A stretch of DNA of 64,000 bases. It comes from Lutibacter sp. (lineage in GTDB: Bacteria; Bacteroidota; Bacteroidia; Flavobacteriales; Flavobacteriaceae). Position numbers and translations under genes: made by a program. The notes under the pieces were generated by a model. The model ran no database searches, was not told where the DNA came from, and worked only from the letters and a program-made list of their open reading frames with translations. Below, piece by piece: positions 22,948 through 45,329 of this stretch. Within the stretch, counting starts at the first letter, position 1; every line of letters begins with the position of its first letter. Where the stretch lies: positions 310,001 to 374,000 of the forward strand of contig NZ_JAEINV010000001.1 of NCBI RefSeq assembly GCF_016342705.1, in the 5' to 3' direction.

Positions 22948-25900
22948 ATGGCATCAAACAAAAAATACTGGAAAAGTGTTGAAGAGCTAAACGAAAATAG
23001 CTTGCTTGTTGATACGTTAAAAAATAACGAGTTTGTTGAAGAAATTCCTACAGATGAATTTTTAGGAAATAAAGAAAATCTTGAGTCATCATCAACAACA
23101 CGTAGAGACTTTTTAAAGTATGTTGGATTTACAACTGCAGCAGCTTCTTTAGCTGCTTGTGAAGGTCCAGTAGTAAAATCAATTCCTTACGTTATAAAAC
23201 CAAATGATATTATTCCTGGTGTTGCTGAATATTATGCAACTACTATGGCAGATGGATTTGATTTTGCAAATGTATTGGTGAAAGTTAGAGAAGGTCGTCC
23301 AATAAAAATTGAACCAAATAAAGAAGCTAGTGGGACTACAAATGCACGTGTTCAAGCTTCGGTACTTTCATTGTATGACAGTTTGCGTTTAAAAGCGCCA
23401 AAAGCTAATGGGGCTGATATTTCTTGGGCAGATGCGGACAGTCAAATTATTTCAAAATTAAATGAGATTAAAGAGGCTGGATTACCAATTGCCGTGTTAA
23501 CTGGAACCTGTGCGAGTCCTTCAACTAAAAAATTAATAGGAAAATTAGGTGAAACTTTTGGGACTGTAAATCATATCGCTTATGATGCAGTTTCTGAATC
23601 TGCTGCATTAGATGCTTTTGAAGCACTATATGGAACGAGAGCTTTGCCAGATTATAATCTTGAAAAAGCGGATGTAATTGTATCTATTGGTGCGGATTTC
23701 TTAGGAGATTGGCAAGGTGGTGGATTTGATGCTGGATATGCAAAAGGACGTGTTCCTCAAAATGGAAAAATGTCTCGTCATATTCAAATAGAATCTAATA
23801 TGACATTAACTGGCGCTAATGCTGATAAACGTTTAATGGTAAAACCATCAGAACAAAATTTAGCATTGATTAAATTATATAACGCAGTAGTTAAGGGAAT
23901 TGCAACAAAAGAAGCAAGTCCGTTAAATGATACAATTCAAAACGCTGCGGCTCAAATTAAAGCTGCTGGAACAAAAGCAGTTGTAGTAACTGGAATTCAA
24001 GATAAAAAGGCACAGTTATTAGCATTGGCAATTAACAATGCTATTAATAGTGAAGTAATTGATGTAGTTGCAACTAAAAATATAAGAAAAGGAAATGATG
24101 CTGTAGTTGCTCAGTTAATAGCTGATATGAATGAAGGAAAAATTGGTGCGGTTATTATTAATAATTCAAATCCTGTTTATTCATTACCAAATGCTGCTGA
24201 GTTTTTAGAAGGATTAAAAAAAGTGAAATTATCTGTTGCATTTTCTATGCAAGATAATGAAACAGCAAATGCTGTTCAATATGCATTAGCAACTCCACAT
24301 TATTTAGAGTCTTGGGGTGATGTAGTGATCAAAAAAGGGCAATATAGTTTAATGCAACCAACTATTAAACCATTATTTAATACACGTCAGTTTCAAGATG
24401 TATTATTAACTTGGACTGGAAGCGCTTCAACATATTACGATTTCTTAAAAGAATTATGGAGTACTGATATTTTAGGTGGCACTTCTTGGAATCAAGCATT
24501 ACACGATGGTATTTTTGTTTCTTCAGAAGTTTCTCCAGATGTTTCAGCTTTAGAAGTTGATATTGATGCCGCTGGATCTGCTTTAGCAGCTATAAAAGGA
24601 AGTGGTTTAGAGCTATCTTTATATACAAAAACCGGGATGGGTGATGGCCAAATGGCTAACAACCCTTGGTTACAGGAATTTCCAGATCCAATTACAAGAA
24701 CATCTTGGGATAATTACATAACGATCTCTAAAGCAGATGCTGAGTCTATTGGAGTTGAAAATCATCATGTTTCAAACGGAGCATTAAATGGTAGTTTAGT
24801 TGAATTAACCGTAAATGGAGTTTCAGAAATTTTACCGGCTTTAATTCAACCAGGTCAAGCAAAAGGATCTTTAGGATTAGCGCTTGGTTATGGACGTAAG
24901 CAAGGTTTAAAAGAAGAAATGCAAACTGGTAAAAATGCTTACCAATTTTATAAAGGTTTTAATAACTTTCAATCAGATGTTACTTTAAAAGTTGTTGCTG
25001 GAGAACACGAATTTGCGTGCGTTCAGTTGCAAAATACCTTAATGGGTAGAGGAGATATTATTAAAGAAACAACTTTAGAGGACTTTATTAATAAAGATGC
25101 CGCTGAATGGAATATAATTCCGAAGGTATCTTTAAACCATAATGAAGTTGATGCAACAAGTGTTGATTTATGGGATTCTTTTGATAGATCAATCGGGCAT
25201 CATTTTAATTTATCAATAGATTTAAATGCCTGTACAGGTTGTGGAGCTTGCGTAATTGCTTGTCACGCTGAAAATAATGTGCCAGTTGTTGGTAAAGAAG
25301 AAATTAGAAAATCGAGAGATATGCACTGGTTGCGTATTGATAGATATTATTCTCACGAAGAAGATTTTGCTGGGGATAATGAAGTGAAAGAGAATGGTAA
25401 AGGGGTAATAGGTTTTAAAACAGCGATGTCTGATTTAGAACATCCTTCTGATAATCCATCGGTGGCATTTCAACCAGTAATGTGTCAACATTGTAATCAC
25501 GCACCATGTGAAACTGTTTGTCCAGTTGCTGCAACATCACACAGTCGTCAGGGTCAAAACCATATGGCATATAATCGTTGTGTTGGTACTCGTTATTGCG
25601 CAAACAACTGTCCATATAAAGTACGTAGATTTAACTGGTTTAATTATCCAAATAACAGCGAATTTGATTTCAATATGAATGACGATTTAGGTAAAATGGT
25701 ATTAAATCCAGATGTAGTTGTGCGTTCTAGAGGTGTTATGGAAAAATGTTCAATGTGTATTCAAATGACACAGGCTACAATTTTAAAAGCGAAGAAAGAA
25801 GGAAGACCAGTGAATACAAATGAGTTTTCAACTGCGTGTTCTAATGCTTGTAGTACTGGAGCAATGGTGTTTGGAGATGTGAATAAAGAAGATGATACAG

Positions 25901-26041: not shown

Positions 26042-27754
26042 ATGTCGTCTCATTACGAAGCACCTATTAGAAGACCTTTAATTGTTGGAGATAAAAGCTA
26101 CCACGATATTACCGTTGAAGTAGCAGCTCCAATTGAAGGTAAAGCAAATAAATTATGGTGGACTGCATTTACAATTGCATTACTAGCCTTTTTGTGGGGA
26201 TTAGGATCAATTATGTACACTATTGGAACAGGAATTGGAGTTTGGGGATTAAATAAAACCGTAGGATGGGCTTGGGATATTACCAACTTTGTATGGTGGG
26301 TAGGTATCGGTCACGCTGGTACATTAATTTCCGCAGTATTATTGTTGTTCCGTCAAAAATGGAGAATGGGTATTAACCGTTCTGCAGAAGCAATGACAAT
26401 TTTCTCTGTTGTTCAGGCAGGTTTATTTCCAGTAATACATATGGGTCGTGTATGGAATGCACACTTTGTATTACCTATTCCTAACCAATTTGGAACACTT
26501 TGGACAAACTTTAACTCACCATTATTATGGGACGTTTTTGCAATTTCAACTTATTTATCAGTTTCATTAGTTTTCTGGTGGACTGGTTTATTGCCTGATT
26601 TCGCAATGTTACGTGATAGAGCTGTAAAACCTTTTCAAAAGAAAATTTATAGTTTGGTTAGTTTTGGATGGACTGGTAGAGCAAAAGACTGGCAACGTTT
26701 TGAAGAAGTATCATTGGTGTTAGCTGGTTTAGCTACTCCGTTAGTACTTTCAGTTCATACAATTGTATCTTTTGACTTTGCTACATCTGTTATTCCAGGT
26801 TGGCATACTACAATTTTCCCTCCATACTTTGTTGCGGGAGCGGTTTTCTCTGGGTTTGCAATGGTTAATACCTTGTTAATCATTATGAGAAAAGTTTCAA
26901 ATTTAGAAGCTTATATTACAGTTCAACATATAGAATTAATGAACATTGTAATTATGATTACGGGTTCAATAGTTGGATGTGCATACATTACAGAGTTATT
27001 TATAGCTTGGTATTCAGGTGTTGAATACGAACAATATGCGTTCTTAAATAGAGCAACAGGACCTTACTGGTGGGCATATTTATTAATGATGAGTTGTAAC
27101 GTATTCTCTCCACAATTTATGTGGTCTAAAAGATTACGTACAAGTATAATGTTCTCTTTCTTTATTTCAATTGTAGTGAATGTTGGAATGTGGTTTGAAC
27201 GTTTTGTAATTATTGTAACCTCATTACATAGAGATTACTTACCTTCATCTTGGACAATGTTTTCTCCAACATTTGTGGATATTGGAATTTATGTGGGTAC
27301 AATCGGGTTTTTCTTTGTATTGTTTTTATTATATGCAAGAACATTCCCTGTAATTGCTCAAGCTGAAGTAAAATCTATTTTAAAATCTTCAGGTGAAAAT
27401 TATAAATTACATAGAGATGCTGGTGCTAAAAATCCTGCTCCTGCAAAAAAAATAGTTACTTCTAAGAAAATTGAAGTTGTTGAGGATACTACTGCTTCTA
27501 AAAATAATTTATTAGGTGCATTAGGAATATTTGATGCTGCTACTGAAAAGGCCGATGACTTAAAATTAATAAGTGGTGTGGGTCCTAAATTAGAAGAAAC
27601 TTTGAACGAAATTGGTATTTATACGTTCGATCAAGTTAGTAAAATGACAGAAAAAGAATATGACTTGTTAGATTCATTATTAGATTCTTTTAAAGGAAGA
27701 GCGTTACGTGATGATTGGGCAGGACAAGCAAAAAACTTAAAAAATAAAGGGTAG
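26042..27754 (+). CDS. actC: Alternative complex III subunit C (NrfD-like) with C-terminal helix-hairpin-helix domain
   Basis: A 570-residue membrane subunit. Residues 35-450 hold about nine to ten transmembrane helices of the NrfD/PsrC type (WWTAFTIALLAFLWGLGSI, HAGTLISAVLLLFRQKW, HIELMNIVIMITGSIVG), forming the quinol site and possible proton path. Unlike typical ActC of about 450-480 residues, it carries an extra tail: a linker with charged and Ala-rich sequence and then a helix-hairpin-helix domain at about 505-565 (DLKLISGVGPKLEETLNEIG, FKGRALRDDWAGQAKNL). Very similar tails occur on NuoE of complex I in alphaproteobacteria. The tail faces the cytoplasm or periplasm depending on helix count. 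Confidence 0.94.
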   Translation: MSSHYEAPIRRPLIVGDKSYHDITVEVAAPIEGKANKLWWTAFTIALLAFLWGLGSIMYTIGTGIGVWGLNKTVGWAWDITNFVWWVGIGHAGTLISAVLLLFRQKWRMGINRSAEAMTIFSVVQAGLFPVIHMGRVWNAHFVLPIPNQFGTLWTNFNSPLLWDVFAISTYLSVSLVFWWTGLLPDFAMLRDRAVKPFQKKIYSLVSFGWTGRAKDWQRFEEVSLVLAGLATPLVLSVHTIVSFDFATSVIPGWHTTIFPPYFVAGAVFSGFAMVNTLLIIMRKVSNLEAYITVQHIELMNIVIMITGSIVGCAYITELFIAWYSGVEYEQYAFLNRATGPYWWAYLLMMSCNVFSPQFMWSKRLRTSIMFSFFISIVVNVGMWFERFVIIVTSLHRDYLPSSWTMFSPTFVDIGIYVGTIGFFFVLFLLYARTFPVIAQAEVKSILKSSGENYKLHRDAGAKNPAPAKKIVTSKKIEVVEDTTASKNNLLGALGIFDAATEKADDLKLISGVGPKLEETLNEIGIYTFDQVSKMTEKEYDLLDSLLDSFKGRALRDDWAGQAKNLKNKG

Positions 27755-35567: not shown

Positions 35568-35583
35568 TGTGACTTTCATCACA
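35568..35583 (+). promoter_or_regulatory. Crp/Fnr-type palindrome upstream of the sulP pair
   Basis: TGTGACTTTCATCACA: perfect 5-base arms TGTGA and TCACA around 6 bases. Its centre (35575.5) is 28.5 bases before the first T of the -7 element, placing it near -41.5, the class II activator position. Three related sites lie further along this island. Confidence 0.65.
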
Positions 35584-35603
35584 ATACTAAATATTTATCG
35601 AAG

Positions 35604-35611
35604 TACTTTTG
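35604..35611 (+). promoter_or_regulatory. -7 element for the sulP pair
   Basis: TACTTTTG, 22 bases before the ATG at 35634. No -33 TTTG, consistent with dependence on an activator at the upstream palindrome. Confidence 0.55.
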
Positions 35612-35633
35612 TTTCTAATAGTTATATAAACTT

Positions 35634-37376
35634 ATGAATATGAGTTTAAAAAAAATATTCCCTTTTTTAACTTGGTTACCATTAGTTAAACATACTTGGA
35701 AAGATGATTTTATTGCAGGAATAACAGGCACTATAATTGTAATTCCACAAGCTGTTGCTTTTGCTATGATTGCTGGTTTACCTCCAGTTTATGGCTTTTA
35801 TACAGCAATGATTACTCCAATTATTGCTGCATTATTTGGTTCTTCATATCATTTAATTTCTGGGCCAACCACCACAAGTTCAATAGTTGTTTTTGCTGTT
35901 ATCAGTAAGTTTGCAAGTCCGGAAACAGAACTAGAAGCATTTATTTCATTAGCTATTGTTTTATCTTTTATGGCTGGTGTTATAAAGTTGATTATGGGAT
36001 TGGCTAAAATGGGAAAGTTGGTGAATTTTGTTTCTAATTCAGTTGTTATTGGTTTTGCTGCTGGAGCAGGAATTTTAATTGCATTTAAACAATTAAAACA
36101 TGTGTTTGGAATTCAAGTACCACTAGGCAGCACATTTTATGAAATCATTAATTACATAATTGTTCATATTCAAGAAACAAATTTATATGTTTTAGGAGTT
36201 GCTTTAGGAACTCTAATTTTGGCTTTTATCATTAAAAAGATAAAATATATTTCTAGATTGTATATGCTAATAGCCATGGTTTTGGGAAGTATTTTGGCTA
36301 TTTTGTTGGGTGGAAATTTACACGGAATTGAAACTGTTGGAACTGTTCCTTCAAATTTACCTCCTTTTAAAATTCCAAATTTTAATTTTGAAGATATGCG
36401 ACTGTTAACTTCTGGAGCAGTTACTTTGGCTTTATTAGGTTTGGTAGAGGCTGTTTCAATTGCAAGAGCAGTAGCATTGCATTCACATCAAAAATTAGAT
36501 AATAATAGAGAGTTTATAGGTCAAGGTTTGTCTAATATTATTTCCAGTTTTTTCTCGTCATATGCAAGTTCAGGTTCTTTTACTAGATCTGGGGTAAATT
36601 ATCAGGCAGGTGCTAAAACGCCTCTTTCTGCAATTGTCTCGGCAGTTGGTTTAATGTTGGTAGTATTGTTTTTTGCAAAGTATGCATCGTTTTTGCCTAA
36701 GCCAGCAATGGGTGGAATTATATTATTGGTGGGTTATAATTTAATTGATTTTAAAAATATAAAAACAATTATTAAAAGTAGTAAAAGAGAGTTTATTGTA
36801 TTAATAATTACGCTTTTAGGAACCTTATTTTTAGAGCTAGAAACTGCATTGCTTTTAGGGATATTAATTTCTTTATTTTTCTATTTAGAAAAAACATCTA
36901 AACCAAATATTGCTGTTTTTGGTAAAAATAGTGAAGATAAATTCATGAATATTATTAGAGATGAAACCACCAAAGAATGTCCTCAATTAAAAATGATTCG
37001 TATAGACGGTTCCATTTATTTTGGTGCTGTTGAAGGAATTTCAAATTATTTTGCAGATTTATATGAAGAAAATAAGCAACAATATTTGTTAATTATTTCA
37101 AACGGAGTTAATTTTATTGATGTAGCAGGAGCAGAATGGTTAACGCAAGAAGTGTTGAAATGGCAAAAACGAGGTGGAGGAATTTATTTTGTTGGTTTAA
37201 AAATTATAAGTCAAGATATTCTTCAAAATGGAGGGTTTTTGAATTCAATAGGTGCGGAGAACTTTTTTAAAGATAAAAATACTGCAGTTTCTACAATTTA
37301 TACCAAACTGGATAAAAGCATTTGTGAAAAGTGCGATATAAAGTTATTTAATGAATGTAAAAAATCTCTTCAATAA
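35634..37376 (+). CDS. SulP-family anion transporter with STAS domain (first copy)
   Basis: A 580-residue membrane protein. The SulP core of about 10-14 helices opens with the family block FIAGITGTIIVIPQAVAFAMIAGLPPVYGFY-like sequence at about 24-55, followed by SGPTTTSSIVVF and SFFSSYASSGSFTRSGVNYQAGAKTPLSAI. The C-terminal STAS domain is at about 450-560. The last 15 residues carry three Cys (CEKCDIKLFNEC), an unusual tail that could bind metal. SulP proteins move sulfate, bicarbonate or other anions. Location beside persulfide dioxygenase suggests sulfate or sulfite. The second copy follows with a one-base overlap. Confidence 0.9.
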   Translation: MNMSLKKIFPFLTWLPLVKHTWKDDFIAGITGTIIVIPQAVAFAMIAGLPPVYGFYTAMITPIIAALFGSSYHLISGPTTTSSIVVFAVISKFASPETELEAFISLAIVLSFMAGVIKLIMGLAKMGKLVNFVSNSVVIGFAAGAGILIAFKQLKHVFGIQVPLGSTFYEIINYIIVHIQETNLYVLGVALGTLILAFIIKKIKYISRLYMLIAMVLGSILAILLGGNLHGIETVGTVPSNLPPFKIPNFNFEDMRLLTSGAVTLALLGLVEAVSIARAVALHSHQKLDNNREFIGQGLSNIISSFFSSYASSGSFTRSGVNYQAGAKTPLSAIVSAVGLMLVVLFFAKYASFLPKPAMGGIILLVGYNLIDFKNIKTIIKSSKREFIVLIITLLGTLFLELETALLLGILISLFFYLEKTSKPNIAVFGKNSEDKFMNIIRDETTKECPQLKMIRIDGSIYFGAVEGISNYFADLYEENKQQYLLIISNGVNFIDVAGAEWLTQEVLKWQKRGGGIYFVGLKIISQDILQNGGFLNSIGAENFFKDKNTAVSTIYTKLDKSICEKCDIKLFNECKKSLQ

Positions 37377-39112
37377 TGAAGTTTAAAAAGTTTATTCCAA
37401 TTTTAGAATGGTTGCCAAATTATCAAAAAGCTTGGTTTAAAGATGATTTTGGAGCAGGATTAACCGTTGGAATAATGTTAATTCCTCAAGGGATTGCCTA
37501 TGCAATGATTGCTGGATTACCACCAATTTACGGTTTGTATACGGCAATGATTCCTCAAATAATTTATGCAATATTTGGAACTTCTCGCCAATTAGCTGTT
37601 GGACCAGTAGCAATGGATTCGTTAATTGTGGCTTCTGGTGTTGCAACATTAGCAGAAGTTGGCACAGAACATTTTATTGAGTTTGCCATTTTACTGGCAT
37701 TTATAATGGGTGTTTTACAAGTATTGTTTGGAATATTTAAGCTAGGATTTTTAGTTAATTTTTTATCGCGTCCTGTTATTAGTGGATTTACATCTGCGGC
37801 AGCATTAATTATTGCATTAAGTCAGCTTAAAAATTTATTAGGTGTAAATCTACAAAAAGGAAATAAAATTCATGAACTACTAATTGAAGTTTACCATCAT
37901 ATTAATGAAATAAACTGGATTACTTTTGCCATTGGTATTATATCCATACTAATTTTGGTGTTTTTTAAAAAATTGACAAAAAAAATTCCGGCAGCATTAG
38001 TTTTAGTGGTGTTAGGAATAATAGTTGTTAAATATTTAAATTTAAATGAAATTGGCGTGAAAATAATTGGTGATATTCCGCAAGGATTACCAGCTTTTAA
38101 AATACCAAGTTTTAGTCTAGATGTAATTATTGATTTATTTCCTATTGCATTAACCTTATCTTTCATCGCTTTTTTAGAAGCAATATCCGTTGCTAAAGCC
38201 ATAGAATTAAAGCACAAAAACTATAAAGTAAACCCAAACCAAGAGTTAATAGCTATTGGAATGGGAAATATTGTTGGGTCATTTTTTCAAACGTATCCAG
38301 CGACCGGAGGGCTGTCTAGATCTGCAGTAAATAATCAACTTGGTGCAAAAACTCCTATGGCAGCAATTATTTCAAGTGTAATTGTTGGCTTAACATTGTT
38401 GTTTTTAACGCCCGTTTTTTATTATTTACCACAAGCTGTTTTAGCAGCAATTATTATTGTGGCAGTTTTTGGATTGTTAGATTTTACGGTGCCAAAACAA
38501 TTGCTTAAATACTCTAAAAGAGAGTTGGTAATTTTAAATATAACTTTAATAATAACAGCAACAATAGGTATTAAAGAGGGTATATTTATTGGGGTAATTT
38601 TGTCTTTAGGAATGTTAATTTATAGAAGTACTAAACCTCATATTGCAATATTAGGAAGAATTCCAAATACACATTTTTATAGAAATATTAAAAGATTTGA
38701 AGGTTTATTGGAAATTAATCCTGCCGTTTTAATTGTGCGCTTTGATGCACAATTATTTTTTGCTAATGTTCAATATTTTAAAGATCAATTAGAAGAATAT
38801 GTTGAAGAAAAAGGAACAGGTTTAAAATTAATTATTATTGATGGTGAAAGTATTAATACCATTGATAGTTCTGGTATTTATATGATGAATGATGTTATTT
38901 CAAAATACCATAGCAATCAAATTGAAATTGCGCTTACAGGGATGAAAGGACCCGTACGTGATGTTTTAGAAAAAAGCGGGGTTATGCAAAAAATAAGGTA
39001 TGAAAATTGTTTTATGAGTATTCAAGAAGCTGTTGATGCATATGAAGATACGGTTAAAAATAAAGAATTAGAACTAAAATATTTTGAATATATAAAGCAA
39101 ACAAACAATTAA
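37376..39112 (+). CDS. SulP-family anion transporter with STAS domain (second copy)
   Basis: A 578-residue paralogue of the preceding gene, opening with LEWLPNYQKAWFKDDFGAG and IMLIPQGIAYAMIAGLPPIYGLY-type sequence. SFFQTYPATGGLSRSAVNNQLGAKTP is the conserved segment after helix 8, and the STAS domain occupies about 440-555 (LIIIDGESINTIDSSGIYMM, with a Ser at the phosphorylation-like site). It lacks the Cys-rich tail of its neighbour. The stop of the first gene and this ATG share one base. The pair may act as a heteromer or handle two related anions. The substrate is unproven. Confidence 0.9.
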   Translation: MKFKKFIPILEWLPNYQKAWFKDDFGAGLTVGIMLIPQGIAYAMIAGLPPIYGLYTAMIPQIIYAIFGTSRQLAVGPVAMDSLIVASGVATLAEVGTEHFIEFAILLAFIMGVLQVLFGIFKLGFLVNFLSRPVISGFTSAAALIIALSQLKNLLGVNLQKGNKIHELLIEVYHHINEINWITFAIGIISILILVFFKKLTKKIPAALVLVVLGIIVVKYLNLNEIGVKIIGDIPQGLPAFKIPSFSLDVIIDLFPIALTLSFIAFLEAISVAKAIELKHKNYKVNPNQELIAIGMGNIVGSFFQTYPATGGLSRSAVNNQLGAKTPMAAIISSVIVGLTLLFLTPVFYYLPQAVLAAIIIVAVFGLLDFTVPKQLLKYSKRELVILNITLIITATIGIKEGIFIGVILSLGMLIYRSTKPHIAILGRIPNTHFYRNIKRFEGLLEINPAVLIVRFDAQLFFANVQYFKDQLEEYVEEKGTGLKLIIIDGESINTIDSSGIYMMNDVISKYHSNQIEIALTGMKGPVRDVLEKSGVMQKIRYENCFMSIQEAVDAYEDTVKNKELELKYFEYIKQTNN

Positions 39113-39135
39113 AGTTTTCTTAAAAAAGTTGTTTA

Positions 39136-39151
39136 TGTAACCTCAGTTACA
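39136..39151 (+). promoter_or_regulatory. Crp/Fnr-type palindrome upstream of the persulfide dioxygenase gene
   Basis: TGTAACCTCAGTTACA: perfect 6-base arms around 4 bases. Its centre (39143.5) is 28.5 bases before the first T of the -7 element, exactly as at the sulP promoter. Confidence 0.7.
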
Positions 39152-39171
39152 AAAAAAAAGAACGTTTCATG

Positions 39172-39179
39172 TAGATTTG
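39172..39179 (+). promoter_or_regulatory. -7 element for the persulfide dioxygenase gene
   Basis: TAGATTTG, full TAnnTTTG, 43 bases before the ATG. An inverted repeat ATGTAG (39169-39174) and CTACAT (39185-39190) spans it. Confidence 0.5.
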
Positions 39180-39222
39180 AAAAACTACATACTAAGTTTA
39201 ATAATATATAAATCAGAGAATT

Positions 39223-40638
39223 ATGAAAGTTGAACAATTATTTACAGGCTGCCTTGCAGAAATGGCTTACTACATTGAATCTAATGGAGAAGCTGCAATT
39301 ATTGATCCTCTTAGAGAAACCGAACCATATATAGAAATGGCAAAAGCAGATGGGGCTAAAATTAAATATGTTTTTTTAACTCACTTTCATGCCGATTTTG
39401 TTTCTGGTCAAGTAGATTTAGCCAAAAAAACTGGAGCCACCATCGTTTTTGGTCCAAACGCAAATCCAAACTATGATATTCATCAAGGTAAAGATGGAGA
39501 ATTATTTCAAATAGGAAATATTTTATTGAAACTATTGCATACTCCTGGTCATACAATGGAGTCTTCTTCTTATGTTTTGATTGATAAAAATGAAAAAACG
39601 CCATATGTATTTACTGGTGATTGCTTATTTATTGGTGATGTGGGAAGACCGGATTTAGCTGTAAAATCTGATTTAACTCAGGCAGATTTGGCGGGTCATT
39701 TATTTGACTCACTTCGAAATAAAATAATGACATTGCCAGATGATATTATTGTATATCCTAATCATGGTGCGGGTTCTGCTTGTGGGAAGAATATGAGTTC
39801 AGAAACTTTTGACACTTTAGGAAATCAGAAGAAAACAAACTATGCCTTAAGAGCAGACATGACTAAAGAAGAGTTCATTACTGAAGTAACAACTGGTTTA
39901 AAACCAGCACCACAGTATTTTGGTAATAACGTAAGAATGAATAAAGGTGTTAATACTAGTATAGACGAAATTTTACATAGAGGAACAACCCCCCTTGATG
40001 CCGCAACATTTAAAGAAATGAGTGAACGTGATGATATTTTAGTGGTTGATACACGTTCAAAAGAAGAATATACAGAAGAAGGAACCGTTCCTGGAGCCTG
40101 GTATATTGGAGCAGATGGAGGTTTTGCACCTTGGGTTGGCGCTTTAATTCCTAATATAAAACAAAAAATTATTTTTATTGCTGAAGGTGGACGGGAACAT
40201 GAGGTAGTAACACGTTTTTCAAGAGTTGGTTATGATCATACCTTTGGCTTTTTGCGTGGAGGAATGCACGCTTGGTTAGCCGCCGGATTTGAAGCTGATA
40301 AAATTGGATCTATGTCAGCCACTCAATTTGCAAATAAATTGAAAGAAGGAACAATAGGCAAAGCACTTGACGTGAGAAAAGAATCTGAATATCTTTCAGA
40401 ACATGTTGTTGGAGTAGAAAATTTTCCTTTAGATTATATTCATTCAAATTTTGCTGAAATAAAGTCAGATACAACTTATGTACTGCATTGTGCTAGCGGT
40501 TATCGATCATTAATTGCTGCATCAATTTTTAAAGCAAATGGAGTAGAAAATGTGTTTGATGTGAGAGGAGGCTTTAAGGATATTAAAGATACTGAGGCAA
40601 AATTAACAGATTATGTTTGTCCAACAACATTATTATAA
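39223..40638 (+). CDS. Persulfide dioxygenase (ETHE1-like) fused to two rhodanese domains
   Basis: A 471-residue protein. Residues 1-250 are a metallo-beta-lactamase-fold dioxygenase: THFHADFVSG at 53-62 (His54, His56, Asp58), LLHTPGHTMESSSYVL and VFTGDCLFIGDVGRPDL, giving the iron ligands of the ETHE1 class. Two rhodanese domains follow: the first (about 270-365) has EGGRE where the active Cys should be, so is probably structural; the second (about 370-471) keeps CASGYRS. It would oxidise glutathione- or thiol-bound persulfide to sulfite, with the second rhodanese moving sulfane sulfur. The order is the same as in CstB-like proteins. Own promoter upstream; strong terminator downstream. Confidence 0.9.
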   Translation: MKVEQLFTGCLAEMAYYIESNGEAAIIDPLRETEPYIEMAKADGAKIKYVFLTHFHADFVSGQVDLAKKTGATIVFGPNANPNYDIHQGKDGELFQIGNILLKLLHTPGHTMESSSYVLIDKNEKTPYVFTGDCLFIGDVGRPDLAVKSDLTQADLAGHLFDSLRNKIMTLPDDIIVYPNHGAGSACGKNMSSETFDTLGNQKKTNYALRADMTKEEFITEVTTGLKPAPQYFGNNVRMNKGVNTSIDEILHRGTTPLDAATFKEMSERDDILVVDTRSKEEYTEEGTVPGAWYIGADGGFAPWVGALIPNIKQKIIFIAEGGREHEVVTRFSRVGYDHTFGFLRGGMHAWLAAGFEADKIGSMSATQFANKLKEGTIGKALDVRKESEYLSEHVVGVENFPLDYIHSNFAEIKSDTTYVLHCASGYRSLIAASIFKANGVENVFDVRGGFKDIKDTEAKLTDYVCPTTLL

Positions 40639-40662
40639 ATGTTCTTTTTTATTTAATATTTT

Positions 40663-40687
40663 GGGGAGTTTTTAACTCCCCTTTTTT
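40663..40687 (+). terminator. Terminator after the persulfide dioxygenase gene
   Basis: Arms GGGGAGTT and AACTCCCC with a short T loop and six T's, 24 bases after the stop. Confidence 0.9.
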
Positions 40688-40696
40688 ATTTTTATT

Positions 40697-40712
40697 CGTA
40701 ACTTTAGTTACC
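40697..40712 (+). promoter_or_regulatory. Crp/Fnr-type palindrome upstream of the rhodanese operon
   Basis: CGTAACTTTAGTTACC: perfect arms GTAAC and GTTAC around 4 bases. Its centre (40704.5) is 29.5 bases before the -7 element, one base more than at the two preceding sites. Confidence 0.65.
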
Positions 40713-40729
40713 ACATTCCAAAATGTGGT
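40710..40729. repeat. Second inverted repeat in the rhodanese promoter
   Basis: Arms ACCACATT and AATGTGGT, perfect over 8 bases around CCAA, lying between the Crp/Fnr-type site and the -7 element. It could be a second operator. Confidence 0.5.
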
Positions 40730-40733
40730 TAGG

Positions 40734-40741
40734 TACATTTG
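40734..40741 (+). promoter_or_regulatory. -7 element for the rhodanese operon
   Basis: TACATTTG, full TAnnTTTG, 23 bases before the ATG at 40765. It lies inside a longer upstream open frame and so decides the shorter start. Confidence 0.55.
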
Positions 40742-40764
40742 TCAAAAATCAAAAATATATAAAT

Positions 40765-41166
40765 ATGAAATTAAAATTAGGGGTTGTTTTATTTATGCTA
40801 TTTATTAGCTTAGGCTGTAATTCTAAACCACCATTAAACGAACAAGAAAAATCGGCAATCCATGTTGTAAAGCCTGCTGAGTTTAAAGAGAAATCAATAA
40901 ATCAAGTTATTATTGATATTAGAACACCACAAGAATTTAATCAAGGCCATATTGAAGGCGCAATAAATATCAATTTTTTTGATAATTCATTTATTGAGCA
41001 AATTGGAAAATACGACAAATCAAAACCTATTTTTTTGTATTGTAGATCAGGTAATAGAACATCTTCTGCGGCAGCAAAAGTTGCAAAATTAGGATATGGA
41101 GAAATTTATGATTTACAAGGAGGAATTATGAGTTGGTCTAGAGAAAATCTTCAAATAATAAAATAA
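40765..41166 (+). CDS. Rhodanese-domain lipoprotein
   Basis: A 133-residue protein: lipoprotein signal MKLKLGVVLFMLFISLGCNS with lipid-site Cys18, then one rhodanese domain (about 35-130) with the active-site loop YCRSGNRTSS. Anchored to a membrane on the periplasmic side, it would accept or donate sulfane sulfur outside the cytoplasm. It starts a probable operon: 1 base before the DUF3365 gene, then the SQR-like flavoprotein. The start at 40765 is set by the signal peptide and by the promoter at 40734. Confidence 0.9.
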   Translation: MKLKLGVVLFMLFISLGCNSKPPLNEQEKSAIHVVKPAEFKEKSINQVIIDIRTPQEFNQGHIEGAININFFDNSFIEQIGKYDKSKPIFLYCRSGNRTSSAAAKVAKLGYGEIYDLQGGIMSWSRENLQIIK

Positions 41167-41167
41167 A

Positions 41168-41737
41168 ATGGTAAAAAAAATATTTTTTCTAATAACAATT
41201 GTGGTTGCGTTAGTTTCCTGTAATACTTCTTTTTCAGAAAAAGACAAAGAAGCATATACTTTAAAAGGGAAAGAAATTGCAGAAGCTGCATTTTTAGAAT
41301 TAAGCACGCAACTTACTGAACAAATGAAAGCAGGTGGTCCAGCGCAAGCTATTCCGTTTTGTAATCAAAAGGCCATGCGAATAACAAATCAATTATCAGA
41401 AAAATTTGAAGCTACTATTAAACGAACTTCAAATGATTTAAGAAATGACCAAAACGCTCCTTCAAAAAGAGAATTAGAAATTTTAGATGAATTTCATAAA
41501 ACCAAGTTGGAAGGAAAACCATTAAAACCTATTGTTGAAGTTGATGCAACTAATAAAAAGCATTTTTATGCGCCAATTATTATGAAAGCCAATTGCTTAG
41601 TTTGTCATGGCACTATAAATGAAACAGTGAATATTAAAACAGATTCTATTATAAAATCATTATATCCAAATGATAAAGCAATAGGGTATAACGAAGGTGA
41701 TTTAAGAGGGATTTGGAGTATTACTTTTAAAAATTAA
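41168..41737 (+). CDS. DUF3365 haem-binding lipoprotein
   Basis: A 189-residue protein with a lipoprotein signal (MVKKIFFLITIVVALVSCN, Cys18) and the DUF3365 fold (Tll0287-like), which is a sensor-type haem domain. The single haem motif CLVCHG is at about residue 155, preceded by PAQAIPFCNQKAMR near 55-70 and FYAPIIMKANC. As a periplasmic mono-haem protein in a sulfide operon it may take electrons or sense redox state or sulfide; there is no direct proof. It lies 1 base after the rhodanese gene and 4 bases before the SQR-like gene. Confidence 0.85.
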   Translation: MVKKIFFLITIVVALVSCNTSFSEKDKEAYTLKGKEIAEAAFLELSTQLTEQMKAGGPAQAIPFCNQKAMRITNQLSEKFEATIKRTSNDLRNDQNAPSKRELEILDEFHKTKLEGKPLKPIVEVDATNKKHFYAPIIMKANCLVCHGTINETVNIKTDSIIKSLYPNDKAIGYNEGDLRGIWSITFKN

Positions 41738-41741
41738 AATT

Positions 41742-43199
41742 ATGGCAAAAGTAGTTGTTTTAGGAGCAGGGATTTCTGGCCACACGGCAGTTTCCTATTT
41801 AAGTAAAAGCCTTAAAAACCCACATGAAGTAGTGATGGTTTCTCCCAATAGTAATTTTCAATGGGTACCTTCAAATATTTGGGTTGGTGTTGGATTAATG
41901 ACTCCAGATCAGGTGAAATTTGCATTGGCGCCTGTGTATAAAAAAATGGGTGTAGATTATAAACAAGCATTAGCTGTATCTATAAATCCAGAAGGAGATG
42001 TAGATAATTCAAAAGGATTTGTAACTATTAAATATGTTTCTGAAGATAAAAAAGATATTGAAGAAAAAGTTACTTACGATTATTTAATAAATGCCACAGG
42101 ACCAAAATTAAATTTTGAAGCAACAGAAGGATTAGGCCCAAAAAAACATACAGAATCTGTTTGTACATATGATCACGCTGCACACGCCTGGACCAAACTG
42201 CAAGAGTCTTTAAAGAAAATGGAAAATGGTGAAAGACAAACGTTTTTAATTGGAACTGGACACGCTATGGCTACTTGCCAAGGTGCTGCTTTTGAGTATA
42301 TTTTAAATATAGCTTTTGAAATTAAAAAGCGTAAACTTCAACATTTAGCCGATTTATGGTGGATAACCAATGAATATGAGTTGGGTGATTTTGGTATGGG
42401 AGGTGCTTATATTAAAAGAAATGGATATATAACACCAACCAAAATTTTTGCTGAATCTATTTTAAAAGAATATGGCGTACAATGGATTAAGCAAGCTGGT
42501 GTACAAAAAGTTGAAAAAGGAGTGGTGTATTATGAAAATTTAAGAGGAGAGCATAAAACTGTAAATTTTGATTTTGCCATGTTAATTCCTGGGTTTACTG
42601 GTGCTGGTATGAAAGCTTTTAATAAAAAGAATGAAGATATTAGTGCTGAAATTTTTGTTGCTAATGGAATGATGAAAGTTGATGCAGATTATACGCCTAA
42701 AGCATATGAAGAATGGAAAGCAGAAGATTGGCCAGAAACATATCAAAGTGTAAAATACGCAAATGTTTATGCGGCTGGAATTGCTTTTGCACCACCGCAT
42801 GCAATGTCTAAACCAATGGAAAGTCCGAATGGGACGAAAATATTTCCAACACCTCCAAGAACAGGAATGCCATCAGGTGTAATAGGTAAAATTGTAGCGC
42901 AAAATATTATTCATTCTATAAAAGTGGGTAAAATTGAACATCCACATAGGGCTTCTATGGCTAAGATGGGTGCTGCCTGTATAGTTTCTGCCGGATATGG
43001 TTTAAGAAAGGGTCAAGCAGCTGTAATGACTGTAAATCCAATTGTTCAAGATTGGGAAAAATATCCAAAATGGGGAAGGAATATTGATGATACCGTTGGA
43101 GTGGTGGGTACAGCAGGACATTGGATGAAATTATTTATGCATTATATGTTTTTATATAAAGCAAAAGCAAAACCTTTTTGGTGGTTAATTCCAGAATAA
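41742..43199 (+). CDS. Sulfide:quinone reductase-like FAD/NAD(P)-binding flavoprotein
   Basis: A 485-residue flavoprotein of the SQR/FCSD superfamily. FAD-binding VVLGAGISGHTAVSYL at 5-20, DYLINATGPKLNFEAT near 113-128 and PHAMSKPMESPNG near 352-364. Three Cys fall at positions expected for an SQR-like redox site: Cys141 (SVCTYDHA), Cys179 (MATCQGAA) and Cys413 (GAACIVSAG). The C-terminal 60 residues (GHWMKLFMHYMFLYKAKAKP) are amphipathic, consistent with binding the membrane surface. It would oxidise sulfide or a thiol-persulfide and reduce quinone. It differs in sequence from the second SQR at 44 kb, so the window holds two subtypes. Confidence 0.82.
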   Translation: MAKVVVLGAGISGHTAVSYLSKSLKNPHEVVMVSPNSNFQWVPSNIWVGVGLMTPDQVKFALAPVYKKMGVDYKQALAVSINPEGDVDNSKGFVTIKYVSEDKKDIEEKVTYDYLINATGPKLNFEATEGLGPKKHTESVCTYDHAAHAWTKLQESLKKMENGERQTFLIGTGHAMATCQGAAFEYILNIAFEIKKRKLQHLADLWWITNEYELGDFGMGGAYIKRNGYITPTKIFAESILKEYGVQWIKQAGVQKVEKGVVYYENLRGEHKTVNFDFAMLIPGFTGAGMKAFNKKNEDISAEIFVANGMMKVDADYTPKAYEEWKAEDWPETYQSVKYANVYAAGIAFAPPHAMSKPMESPNGTKIFPTPPRTGMPSGVIGKIVAQNIIHSIKVGKIEHPHRASMAKMGAACIVSAGYGLRKGQAAVMTVNPIVQDWEKYPKWGRNIDDTVGVVGTAGHWMKLFMHYMFLYKAKAKPFWWLIPE

Positions 43200-43214
43200 T
43201 TTAAAACGAAACAG

Positions 43215-43379
43215 ATGAAAACAACAACAGATAAAACAGTACCATATAGTAATATTTCCTTTGGAACTGAACCAACAAAATTGGTTCGGTTTATGAGAGT
43301 TTTCTTTCCATATCAGATTTACAATTTTTTTAAATTAAATTTAAAAGTAATGATGATAGTTGTTAGAGGGCATTCATAA
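43215..43379 (+). CDS. 54-residue protein after the SQR-like gene
   Basis: An open frame from ATG at 43215 to TAA at 43377-43379: 54 residues beginning MKTTTDKTVPYSNISFGTEP, with a core TKLVRFMRVFFPYQIYNFFK and a C-terminal VMMIVVRGHS. It lies 15 bases after the SQR-like stop in the same direction, uses codons like its neighbours, and has a hydrophobic, basic central stretch that may be amphipathic. No homologous domain recognised. It could be a small accessory subunit for membrane attachment of the flavoprotein. Confidence 0.55.
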   Translation: MKTTTDKTVPYSNISFGTEPTKLVRFMRVFFPYQIYNFFKLNLKVMMIVVRGHS

Positions 43380-43391
43380 AAATTAATTTTG

Positions 43392-43399
43392 TAATTTTG
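43392..43399 (+). promoter_or_regulatory. -7 element for the HMA-like gene
   Basis: TAATTTTG, full TAnnTTTG, 18 bases before the ATG at 43418. No Crp/Fnr-type palindrome at the matching distance. Confidence 0.45.
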
Positions 43400-43417
43400 T
43401 ACTCTAAAAATAATAGT

Positions 43418-43690
43418 ATGACAACGTTAGAAATATTAAACTTAAAATGTGGCGGTTGTGCCAATTCTATTAAAAAAGGATTGTTAGCAATTGATGGAGT
43501 TACTGATGTTTCTGTAGACTTAGAAGCTTCAAAAGTAACTATAGACACCAAAGATAATTCGGTTTTAACTGAAGTGAAAAATAAACTTTCAACTATGGGT
43601 TACCCAGAAGTTGGAGATGCTAATACAATAATTCACAAAGCAAAATCTTTTGTTAGTTGCGCAACTGGAAGAATGACTTCAGAATCTTAA
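43418..43690 (+). CDS. Small HMA-like (heavy-metal-associated domain) protein
   Basis: A 90-residue protein. Residues 1-65 form an HMA fold with LKCGGCANSIKKGLLAIDGV; Cys11 and Cys14 would bind a soft metal ion such as copper(I), or take part in thiol chemistry. The C-terminal 20 residues add a third Cys (FVSCATGRMTSES). The site reads CGGC with no preceding Met as in MxCxxC of classical CopZ. In a sulfide island it could handle copper mobilised by sulfide, or carry persulfide sulfur; both are inference. An upstream in-frame ATG at 43397 overlaps the promoter, so 43418 is preferred. Confidence 0.8.
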   Translation: MTTLEILNLKCGGCANSIKKGLLAIDGVTDVSVDLEASKVTIDTKDNSVLTEVKNKLSTMGYPEVGDANTIIHKAKSFVSCATGRMTSES

Positions 43691-43700
43691 AAAACTAGTT

Positions 43701-43910
43701 ATGAAAAAAAACGTAGGTAGTACAGATAAGATAGTGAGAATGGTTTTGGCTATTGCAATAGGTTATTTTGCGTATTCAACAGTGTTTGAAACTAGTTGGA
43801 TTCAATATGTATTATATGTAATTGCTGGGATAATGCTAGTCACTCCAATCACTGGATTTTGTCCTCTTTATACACTTTTTGGAGTAAATACTTGTGAAAT
43901 AAAAGAATAA
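43701..43910 (+). CDS. DUF2892 (YgaP-like) small membrane protein
   Basis: A 69-residue protein: KNVGSTDKIVRMVLAIAIG at the start, two hydrophobic helices (about 11-25 and 34-48) and the end motif GFCPLYTLFGVNTCEIKE with two Cys. DUF2892 is the transmembrane part of YgaP, whose other half is a rhodanese, so its presence beside rhodanese genes fits sulfur handling at the membrane. It follows the HMA-like gene by 10 bases, and is followed by the 50-base palindrome. Confidence 0.85.
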   Translation: MKKNVGSTDKIVRMVLAIAIGYFAYSTVFETSWIQYVLYVIAGIMLVTPITGFCPLYTLFGVNTCEIKE

Positions 43911-43926
43911 GTAACCATAGATTTTA

Positions 43927-43976
43927 AAAAAAAAGCACTTTAATGTGATTATAATCACATTAAAGTGCTTTTTTTT
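43927..43976. terminator. 50-base perfect palindrome: terminator plus Crp/Fnr-type site
   Basis: Bases 43927-43976 read the same on both strands, with no mismatch (centre 43951.5). The outer A and T tracts and GCACTTTAATGTGATT stem form a strong hairpin that ends the HMA-DUF2892 transcript. The central 16 bases, TGTGATTATAATCACA (43944-43959), match the Crp/Fnr-type site of this island, and their centre is 28.5 bases before a -7-like element at 43980. One structure may thus both end one unit and control the next. Confidence 0.8.
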
Positions 43977-43979
43977 ATT

Positions 43980-43987
43980 TAATTTTC
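43980..43987 (+). promoter_or_regulatory. -7-like element before the second SQR gene
   Basis: TAATTTTC matches TAnnTTTG except for the last base. Its distance from the Crp/Fnr-type core is 28.5 bases, as at sulP and the dioxygenase gene. Confidence 0.45.
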
Positions 43988-44018: not shown

Positions 44019-45329
44019 ATGTCTAAACATTATCAAGTGTTGGTAATTGGTGGTGGAACAGCTGGAATTATGGTTTCATCCATGCTAAAAAGAAAAAATA
44101 AATCCATTCAAATTGGTTTAATTGAACCAGCTCAAACGCATTATTATCAGCCAGCTTGGACATTGGTTGGAGCAAATACATACGATTTTGAGAAGACCGC
44201 GAGGCCAATGGCTTCATTAATACCAGAAGGAGTTGATTGGATTCAACAATTTGCCGAGAAATTTGAACCAGAAAACAATAAAGTTTTCACTAAAAAAGGT
44301 GAAGAATTTACTTATGATTATTTAGTAGTTGCGCCAGGATTGAAGATTGCTCCTGAAATGATTGAAGGGCTTAAAGAGGCAATGGATAAAGGAGTTGTTT
44401 GTAGTAATTATACAAATCCAAAGCATACTTGGGAAATTTTACAAAAATTTAAAGGAGGAACAGCACTTTTTACCCAACCTGCAACACCAATTAAATGTGG
44501 AGGTGCACCTCAAAAAATAATGTATTTGGCAGATGAGCATTTTAGAAAAGAGGGACTAAGAGATAAAACAGATATTGTTTTTGCTTTACCAAGCGGATCT
44601 ATTTTTGGTGTAAAAATAATTGCGGATACTTTAATGAATGTTGTAGATAAAAAAGATATTAATGTTCGATTTTTTCATAGACTTGTAAAAGTAGATGGTG
44701 ATAAAAAAATTGCTTGGTATGAAATAGATAAGGATTTAACAGCGGGTGGTTGCGTAACTATTGCAGATGGAGATATTACTACATTAGATAAAGATATTCA
44801 ATACAACTATAAAGATGTTAAGGTAAGTAGAAGAGGAGAACAATATGGAATTCATTTTGATATGATGCATTTGGCACCGCCACAATGTGCGCCTGATTTT
44901 ATTAAAAATTCTCCTTTAGTTTCTGAAGCTGGTTGGGTTGATGTAAATAAAGGAACAATGCAACATGTTAAATACGGAAATATTTTTAGTTTAGGAGATG
45001 TTTCTAATTTACCAACTTCAAAAACAGGTGCAGCCATTAGAAAACAAGCTCCGGTTGTGGTTGAAAATATTTTAAAGTTAATTGAATCAAATGCACTTTC
45101 AACAAAAGAATATAAAGGATATACTTCTTGTCCGTTAGTTACAGGTTATGGTAAAATGGTATTGGCGGAGTTTGATTATAATCAAAATTTTGAACCAGAT
45201 CCAAAGTTAAAACAGTTTCCTTTAATGATTTCAGATTCTTCAAAAGAGCATTGGAGATTATGGTTACTAAAAAAATATATGCTTCCTTATTTGTATTGGA
45301 ATAAGATGATGAAAGGTATTGAAGTTTAA
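44019..45329 (+). CDS. sqr: Sulfide:quinone oxidoreductase, SQOR (type II) like
   Basis: A 436-residue FAD enzyme closest to mitochondrial SQOR. FAD-binding VLVIGGGTAGIMVSSML at 8-24, the segment AQTHYYQPAWTLVGAN near 38-53, and the two active-site Cys are Cys160 (PIKCGGAPQK) and Cys371 (SCPLVTGYG), which form the sulfur-bridged redox pair in SQOR. GDVSNLPTSKTGAAIRKQAP is near 326-345. The C-terminal helices WLLKKYMLPYLYWNKMMKGI attach it to the membrane. It oxidises sulfide to a persulfide and reduces quinone; the dioxygenase at 39.2 kb would use the product. It is transcribed alone. Confidence 0.92.
   Translation: MSKHYQVLVIGGGTAGIMVSSMLKRKNKSIQIGLIEPAQTHYYQPAWTLVGANTYDFEKTARPMASLIPEGVDWIQQFAEKFEPENNKVFTKKGEEFTYDYLVVAPGLKIAPEMIEGLKEAMDKGVVCSNYTNPKHTWEILQKFKGGTALFTQPATPIKCGGAPQKIMYLADEHFRKEGLRDKTDIVFALPSGSIFGVKIIADTLMNVVDKKDINVRFFHRLVKVDGDKKIAWYEIDKDLTAGGCVTIADGDITTLDKDIQYNYKDVKVSRRGEQYGIHFDMMHLAPPQCAPDFIKNSPLVSEAGWVDVNKGTMQHVKYGNIFSLGDVSNLPTSKTGAAIRKQAPVVVENILKLIESNALSTKEYKGYTSCPLVTGYGKMVLAEFDYNQNFEPDPKLKQFPLMISDSSKEHWRLWLLKKYMLPYLYWNKMMKGIEV

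Follow-up and report, generated by a model that had tools for sequence, protein, structure and literature searches.

An island of sulfide oxidation genes in Lutibacter sp. raises the question of what switches it on. The island lies in a stretch of 64,000 nucleotides (contig NZ_JAEINV010000001.1, positions 310,001 to 374,000), here called the window, whose own coordinates we use throughout. It comprises two genes of SulP transporters (sulP1 and sulP2), a gene of a probable persulfide dioxygenase (PDO), an operon encoding a rhodanese-like protein and a sulfide:quinone oxidoreductase-like flavoprotein (SQR-a), and the gene of a sulfide:quinone oxidoreductase (SQOR). An earlier note had proposed that one Crp/Fnr-family regulator acts on the whole island through four palindromes. 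From comparative sequence analysis, we consider it likely that the island belongs to a class II Crp/Fnr regulon for sulfide oxidation, with V-type and E-type paralogues as regulators, operators in two dialects and a fourth site fused to a terminator. Two related Crp/Fnr-type proteins probably switch on sulfide oxidation genes in marine Bacteroidota. Our searches of openly licensed PMC papers found no description of such a Bacteroidota regulon; the proposal names a regulator, its operator and the genes under its control for the heterotrophic oxidation of sulfide in a widespread group of marine and sediment bacteria.

Four predicted operators at almost the same distance from the -7 box

The first -7 box below was placed from the sequence and the TAnnTTTG placement in PMC9723704 (excerpts), and the others from the sequence and promoter comparison.

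35568..35583, + strand: operator 1, TGTGA-N6-TCACA (TGTGACTTTCATCACA), 5′ of sulP1
35604..35611, + strand: -7 box TACTTTTG, 28.5 bases after the centre of operator 1
39136..39151, + strand: operator 2, TGTAAC-N4-GTTACA (TGTAACCTCAGTTACA), 5′ of PDO
39172..39179, + strand: -7 box TAGATTTG, 28.5 bases after the centre of operator 2
40698..40711, + strand: operator 3, GTAAC-N4-GTTAC (GTAACTTTAGTTAC), 5′ of the rhodanese-SQR operon
40734..40741, + strand: -7 box TACATTTG, 29.5 bases after the centre of operator 3
43944..43959, + strand: operator 4, TGTGA-N6-TCACA (TGTGATTATAATCACA), 5′ of SQOR
43980..43987, + strand: -7 box TAATTTTC, 28.5 bases after the centre of operator 4, its final base deviating from TAnnTTTG

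Direct reading of the sequence confirmed the four palindromes and the spacings that the earlier note had reported. Because TAnnTTTG spans -12 to -5 in Flavobacterium psychrophilum, as given in excerpts of PMC9723704, the operator centres are expected at -40.5/-41.5; the class II placement near -41.5 put forward in the earlier note is thus supported by geometry, as far as it can be predicted from -7 boxes. From there, a bound Crp/Fnr dimer would make class II contact with RNA polymerase and turn on the units of sulfide oxidation, i.e., the sulP pair, PDO, rhodanese-SQR and SQOR. A second small hairpin (CCACATT/AATGTGG) lies at 40713-40733, in the gap that separates operator 3 from its -7 box.

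Taken alone, the palindromes are ordinary; it is their combination with the spacing that is unusual. TGTGA-N6-TCACA with at most two mismatches occurs 28 times in the window, compared with 28.2 in shuffles, and genome-wide counts are 34 for TGTRA-N6-TYACA (39 for the reversed pattern) and 66 for GTRAY-N4-RTYAC (91 for the reversed pattern). The exact form TGTGA-N6-TCACA accounts for only two of those 34 places, both inside this island. Around 49 of the 66 GTRAY-N4-RTYAC palindromes (both strands; the 50 listed, less C22:160858), exact TAnnTTTG was seen at 28.5 in four cases and at 29.5 in two, and no other offset between 10.5 and 59.5 had more than one. The absence of a comparable site elsewhere in the window, also noticed before, holds for GTRAY-N4-RTYAC, whose sole other match, at 26948, has no box at 27.5-30.5; looser palindrome matches lie at 24928 and 30184. 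Chance palindromes, although the palindromes by themselves are not enriched, are rejected because of the spacing and the conservation described below.

Conservation in relatives

The relatives compared are the best 80 of 552 among the matches listed. The window is Lutibacter-like, as the majority of named relatives whose PDO is 85-90% identical are Lutibacter, and we treated as the Lutibacter group the window and 16 loci chosen by identity and label, not every gene being present in each locus. The group takes in three loci under other labels (L025, L061 and L026, the last labelled Gelidibacter), and the Lutibacter-labelled L079 was counted among the others. Promoters were scored for a core, GTRA-N6-TYAC, within 200 bp of the gene start.

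Within the group, the core precedes sulP1 in 15 of 15 cases (always 28.5 from TAnnTTT), PDO in 17 of 17, the rhodanese gene in 15 of 15 and SQOR in 8 of 8, that is, in 55 of 55 cases. The earlier note had made its proposal depend on conservation of the sites upstream of orthologues, which is what we observe, and its view that the island is co-regulated is supported. Among 16 SQOR orthologues (L198-L213), GTGA/TCAC is kept in 15, and in 14 of these a box of relaxed form, [TA]AnnTTT or TAnnTT, stands 28.5 away. In the Lutibacter group, the core is absent before genes internal to operons (sulP2 0/13, D3365 0/16, SQR-a 0/10, HMA 0/12) and before the neighbouring ruvB (0/7). A reversed core, used as a control, matches no sulP1, PDO or SQOR region but does match 5 of the 15 for rhodanese, which leaves this one control unclean.

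Outside the group, the core is found at 50 of 61 PDO promoters (reversed control, 1/61), 10 of 11 SQOR promoters, 5 of 6 SQR-a promoters and 12 of 39 sulP2 promoters; SQR-a probably heads its own unit there. The spacing is preserved as well: of the 79 sites outside the group, 62 have TAnnTTT 28.5 or 29.5 after the centre, and no other offset has more than seven boxes; of the 55 sites inside it, 51 do, and nine boxes also occur at 23.5. The predicted regulon is common to Flavobacteriia and some other Bacteroidota.

The same geometry could be read in the opposite sense, with the Crp/Fnr protein as a repressor that blocks polymerase until a signal releases it. A dimer near -41.5 would cover part of the -33 region, and position alone is no proof of activation. 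However, a spacing held to 28.5-29.5 over many promoters fits contact with polymerase, and we regard repression as quite improbable. Also against repression is NtcA, a CRP-family activator whose recognition helix is similar: its activating site GTAN8TAC lies at about -41.5 (PMC3898017).

Candidate regulators beside sulfur genes

If the sites are operators for activation, where is the activator encoded? All nine HTH_Crp_2 matches that a profile search found in the genome lie outside the window, and no regulator appears among the open reading frames listed for 28000-52000; a regulator inside the window was therefore rejected, as the earlier note had already supposed. Three related Crp/Fnr genes adjoin sulfur genes. 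On contig C8, L008 adjoins a pair of genes for Sulf_transp (YeeE-like) proteins and L009 lies just past that pair, while L007 is on contig C7, inside a sulfur gene cluster (L106; G000 C7 12001-32000) that we take to encode SQR-like, TusE-like, DsrE-like and several rhodanese-like proteins, a YeeE-like pair and NrfD/molybdopterin proteins. The recognition helix reads SRVV[IV]SR in L008 and L007 (V-type) and SREAISR in L009 (E-type). In this genome, an operator stands between L008 and the YeeE pair with its box, TACTTTTA, at 28.5, and another, with TAACTTTG also at 28.5, precedes an operon on C8 for a molybdoenzyme (an Fe-S/NrfD fusion and a molybdopterin subunit), presumably SoeABC-like. L008 is present in 35 of 38 Lutibacter genomes, and the core occurs between the Crp gene and YeeE in 23 of 30 Lutibacter loci. 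In L106, AGTAACAATGGTTACA precedes a molybdoenzyme (phs-like) operon; it has no TAnnTTT at the spacing and is a candidate only.

The earlier note had suggested searching for a Crp/Fnr gene that co-occurs with the island. Bare presence turned out to be uninformative, since nearly all of the 109 family genomes have a match, 104 to the regulator and 108 to PDO, and we used linkage instead. A strong L008-type best match (at least 177 bits) exists in 96 of the 109 genomes; at least 71 of these 96 have one of the listed PDO-like genes no farther than 12 kb away, where about 0.95 would be expected, and at least 65 have one no farther than 5 kb away. Layouts include Crp-site-YeeE-YeeE-site-molybdoenzyme (L148, L151), Crp-site-PDO (L161-L163) and Crp-site-molybdoenzyme (L157). 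Among L008-like loci outside Lutibacter, 26 of 51 with a V-type helix and 5 of 10 with an E-type helix carry the core no more than 330 bp 3′ of the gene; for this tally, duplicates (L052/L158, L096/L161, L097/L163 and L098/L162) were merged and L165, with an unread helix and one mixed site, was dropped.

Fifteen non-Lutibacter records have a Crp/Fnr gene with L008 as its best match inside the PDO locus; five of these genes are V-type and ten E-type. The latter, with the helix SSREVISR, are in L046, L056, L057, L069, L072, L073, L076, L082, L092 and L103; in L046 and L072, the E-type gene is directly before SQOR. L063 was dropped as a Crp/Fnr regulator because it is a response-regulator match. 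Autoregulation was likewise rejected as a general feature: no core occurs within 200 bp 5′ of the first set of Crp genes examined, and the sole case in a wider set is L175, where TGTAACTTTGGTTACA, at L175:1447 and with a box at 28.5, stands just before the Crp gene, so that autoregulation is possible in that genome.

Two operator dialects

As judged from their half-sites, the operators form two dialects, TGTGA-N6-TCACA (sulP, SQOR) and GTAAC-N4-GTTAC (rhodanese), and the residue at the position of CRP Glu181 divides the regulators into V-type and E-type. We hypothesize that V-type L008 and L007 read GTAAC-N4-GTTAC and that E-type L009 reads TGTGA-N6-TCACA, which would make these paralogues a natural test case of one helix residue setting operator choice in the Crp/Fnr family. 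Of the 26 V-type loci outside Lutibacter that have a 3′ site, 24 carry GTAA in both halves, two are mixed and none carries TGTGA in both; of the five such E-type loci, four carry TGTGA in both halves and one is mixed. With the window set aside, the Lutibacter group has a TGTGA-type site at 13 of 14 sulP1 promoters (the exception is L036) and at 7 of 7 SQOR promoters, and a GTAAC-type site at 14 of 14 rhodanese promoters. The helix Glu of L009 is kept in 20 of 20 Lutibacter genomes fetched, out of 31 with an L009-like match (our own genome included; likeness taken from the match table).

Genomes that differ in L009 allow a further comparison, made in 13 hand-chosen genomes of the 38 from Lutibacter; the named loci overlap these genomes (L036 and G024 share the sulP1 site). 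The sulP1 site is TGTGA-type in 8 of 8 genomes with an L009 match or fragment (G002, G003, G004, G006, G013, G018, G033 and G023). G025, G026 and G016 have no L009 after the YeeE pair and no L009-like match genome-wide. In G025, the sulP1 site is TGTAATTCTTATTACA, TGTAA-type; in G026 it is TGTAATTCTTGTAACA, a degenerate TGTAA-type without a full core; and in G016, no sulP1 orthologue is among the matches listed and a mixed site is before sulP2. The sulP1 site of G024, a genome 87% complete in which neither L009 nor L008 was found and only an L007-type gene was, is CGTAACATTCATTACG, again TGTAA-type. An L009-like match occurs in 16 of 16 Lutibacter genomes with SQOR, but this co-occurrence is weak evidence because 31 of 38 genomes have such a match anyway.

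Several observations weigh against the proposed regulon. At the level of promoters, the reversed core matches in the rhodanese regions have been mentioned; outside the Lutibacter group, the core is before none of 27 sulP1 genes and before only 2 of 24 rhodanese genes, and it is missing from 11 of 61 PDO promoters. A strong L008-type gene is nevertheless present in three (L058, L067 and L078) of five searched genomes with a core-less PDO promoter. Conversely, L085 and L090 have the PDO site, and the genome of L085 gave no L008-like match and that of L090 only a 54-residue L008-like match and a weak one of 40 bits. At the level of linkage, no PDO-like gene within 12 kb is among the matches listed for 25 of the 96 family genomes, and outside Lutibacter the core is missing 3′ of the gene in 25 of 51 V-type loci. 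As to the dialects, G022 has a TGTGA-type sulP1 site with L009 unseen (its contig ends 62 bp past YeeE2), and the swap at sulP1 rests on few independent events because G025 and G026 seem closely related. The PDO sites of Lutibacter follow no single type (one with G in both half-sites, seven with A in both and eight mixed), and in nine loci of one Lutibacter clade, V-type L008 is beside a TGTGA-type yeeE site, which may mean that V-type proteins accept either dialect or that L009 has taken over the yeeE site.

The last two points also speak for a simpler scheme, in which L008 alone reads all four sites with relaxed recognition at half-site position 4, the G/A difference being drift or affinity tuning. 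CRP altered at Glu181 is reported to show relaxed specificity. Against such a scheme are the separation of TGTGA sites between V-type and E-type loci outside Lutibacter, the near uniformity of the sulP1, SQOR and rhodanese sites in the Lutibacter group, and the different class of the sulP1 site where L009 is absent; a single L008 seems unlikely to us, if by no means far-fetched. The single regulator that the earlier note had assumed for the whole island is probably wrong, because the two operator classes mostly track the two recognition helices and the class of the sulP site differs in genomes without L009.

A probable fusion of operator and terminator

Operator 4 has a second feature, overlooked in the earlier note: it is the apex of a hairpin of 23 bp followed by a T run (-28.3 kcal/mol, z -10.2). 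With its stable stem and T run, this element is a predicted intrinsic terminator.

43928..43975, + strand: fused operator-terminator with operator 4 as its apex, from hairpin prediction and covariation over 15 loci

We hypothesize that, before SQOR, one palindrome would end the upstream transcript as RNA and activate the next gene as DNA. In an alignment of 15 loci (the window and 14 relatives), both members vary in 10 of the 12 outer pairs, none of the four GTGA/TCAC pairs ever varies, and pairing is kept in 97.1% of all cells. To enter the set, a locus needed the GTGA/TCAC core together with complementarity in no fewer than 9 of its 12 flanking pairs, and all 15 core-bearing loci qualified; left out is the SQOR orthologue L204, which has lost the core and, by eye, kept the hairpin. 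Since the outer pairs co-vary while the core stays invariant, operator and outer stem are under different constraints, and for the same reason the RNA and DNA roles of the fusion should be separable by mutation. Such a fusion would be a compact punctuation element.

The fusion also recurs at a different gene, as L046, L050, L073 and L076 carry fusions with a T run before SQR-a, with boxes at 28.5 or 29.5; L040, with a weak hairpin, was not counted. Of all core matches in the window and L025-L104, seven are flanked by 12 pairs that are all complementary; five of these lie at SQOR and two at SQR-a. One could object that operator 4 is a mere terminator stem that resembles a Crp site by chance, given its strong hairpin with a T run and a -7 box that is not a full TAnnTTTG. 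Yet the contrast between changing outer pairs and unchanging GTGA/TCAC pairs, the relaxed box kept at its spacing in 14 of 15 loci and the nesting at SQR-a make a chance resemblance highly improbable.

Terminators built from DNA uptake sequences are reportedly a related double use of hairpins. There, too, a DNA element with another role forms the terminator hairpin; here, the nested element is a predicted transcription factor operator at a promoter. Among the papers that a literature search listed, one of which (PMC1852404) deals by its title with terminators and DNA uptake, none describes an operator-terminator of this kind as far as the entries show.

Relation to known regulators

The protein encoded by L008 scores above the Pfam cut-offs for cNMP_binding (39.7 vs. 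27.5 bits) and HTH_Crp_2 (36.7 vs. 27 bits), and its structural model (pLDDT 91.4) matches the fold of CRP and NtcA. L009 is marginal for HTH_Crp_2 (27.3 vs. 27 bits), and cNMP_binding is not among its matches at E ≤ 0.001. No curated name fits: the NCBIfam scores of L008 are all under their cut-offs (NtcA 41.3 vs. 244.95, CRP 43 vs. 266 and FNR 23 vs. 228 bits), as is that of L009 for CRP (28 vs. 266 bits).

In E. coli, CRP binds TGTGA-N6-TCACA and contacts cAMP through Glu72. The resemblance to CRP extends over the fold of L008, the TGTGA-N6-TCACA dialect, the Glu at the helix position of L009 and the predicted class II position; L008 was rejected as CRP on its score and because the position aligned with Glu72 is not Glu in its family. 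FNR shares the superfamily and the class II geometry and has a set of cysteines for its Fe-S cluster. With only Cys78 and Cys91, L008 lacks such a four-cysteine set and was rejected as FNR on this and on score. It was also rejected as NtcA, being under the equivalog cut-off. Still, cyanobacterial NtcA belongs to the CRP family and has a closely similar aligned helix (stRVtVtRLL, compared with tsRVVisRLL in L008), and its site GTAN8TAC is contained within GTAAC-N4-GTTAC. Unlike NtcA, the L008 system would serve sulfur genes and not nitrogen genes, and L008 has Cys78 in its effector domain.

The persulfide-responsive regulators SqrR/BigR, CstR and FisR control sulfide oxidation (SQR and PDO genes) and belong to other protein families; we know of no Crp/Fnr member among them. 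The closest solved structure to L008, by both sequence and fold, is 3dv8, a Crp/Fnr protein of Eubacterium rectale that has a Cys at the same place and whose entry gives no function beyond putative regulator. Cys78 stands just before an effector-domain helix and is invariant in 48 chosen aligned homologues, and it is plausible that it acts as a reactive-sulfur sensor. A two-cysteine persulfide sensor was rejected, the second cysteine motif of many homologues being missing in Lutibacter L008. In L009 proteins, the corresponding TSAIA-like stretch, where readable, contains no cysteine, and therefore L008 and L009 may carry different inputs. That all three parts hold together, namely that paralogues differing at the Val/Glu helix residue read two dialects, that the fusion arose repeatedly and that Cys78 may sense reactive sulfur, is in our judgment an evenly balanced proposition.

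Genes of the island and further candidate sites

The genes between and after the operators are as follows.

35634..37376, + strand: sulP1, SulP family transporter with STAS domain (PF00916, PF01740)
37376..39112, + strand: sulP2, SulP family transporter (Pfam), without a site of its own and presumably in one operon with sulP1
39223..40638, + strand: MBL-fold and rhodanese protein (PF00753, PF00581), probable PDO
40663..40681, + strand: predicted intrinsic terminator 3′ of PDO (hairpin prediction)
40765..41166, + strand: rhodanese-like protein (PF00581), by inspection with a lipoprotein-like N-terminus
41168..41737, + strand: Tll0287-like protein (PF11845)
41742..43199, + strand: SQR-a, putative sulfide:quinone oxidoreductase-like flavoprotein (PF07992; weak NCBIfam match, 43 bits vs. 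cut-off 525)
43215..43379, + strand: open reading frame of 54 amino acids between SQR-a and the HMA gene, without a Pfam match
43418..43690, + strand: HMA-domain protein (PF00403)
43701..43910, + strand: YgaP-like transmembrane protein (PF11127)
44019..45329, + strand: SQOR, sulfide:quinone oxidoreductase (PF07992; NCBIfam SQR_III 254 bits, under its cut-off of 525)

Short SQOR fragments occur in G002 (C17 and C19), G003 (C1) and G006 (C4), three of the five with an internal stop codon, which suggests that the SQOR genes have decayed in these three Lutibacter genomes.

Elsewhere in the genome of the window, a site before a thioredoxin gene (C22:212828, L275) has no box at the spacing. Further candidates are found before genes for a rhodanese (C8:292689, L269) and a 1-Cys peroxiredoxin (C16:47544, L270) and at a TolC/RND set with two sites (C17:24875/24897, L268).

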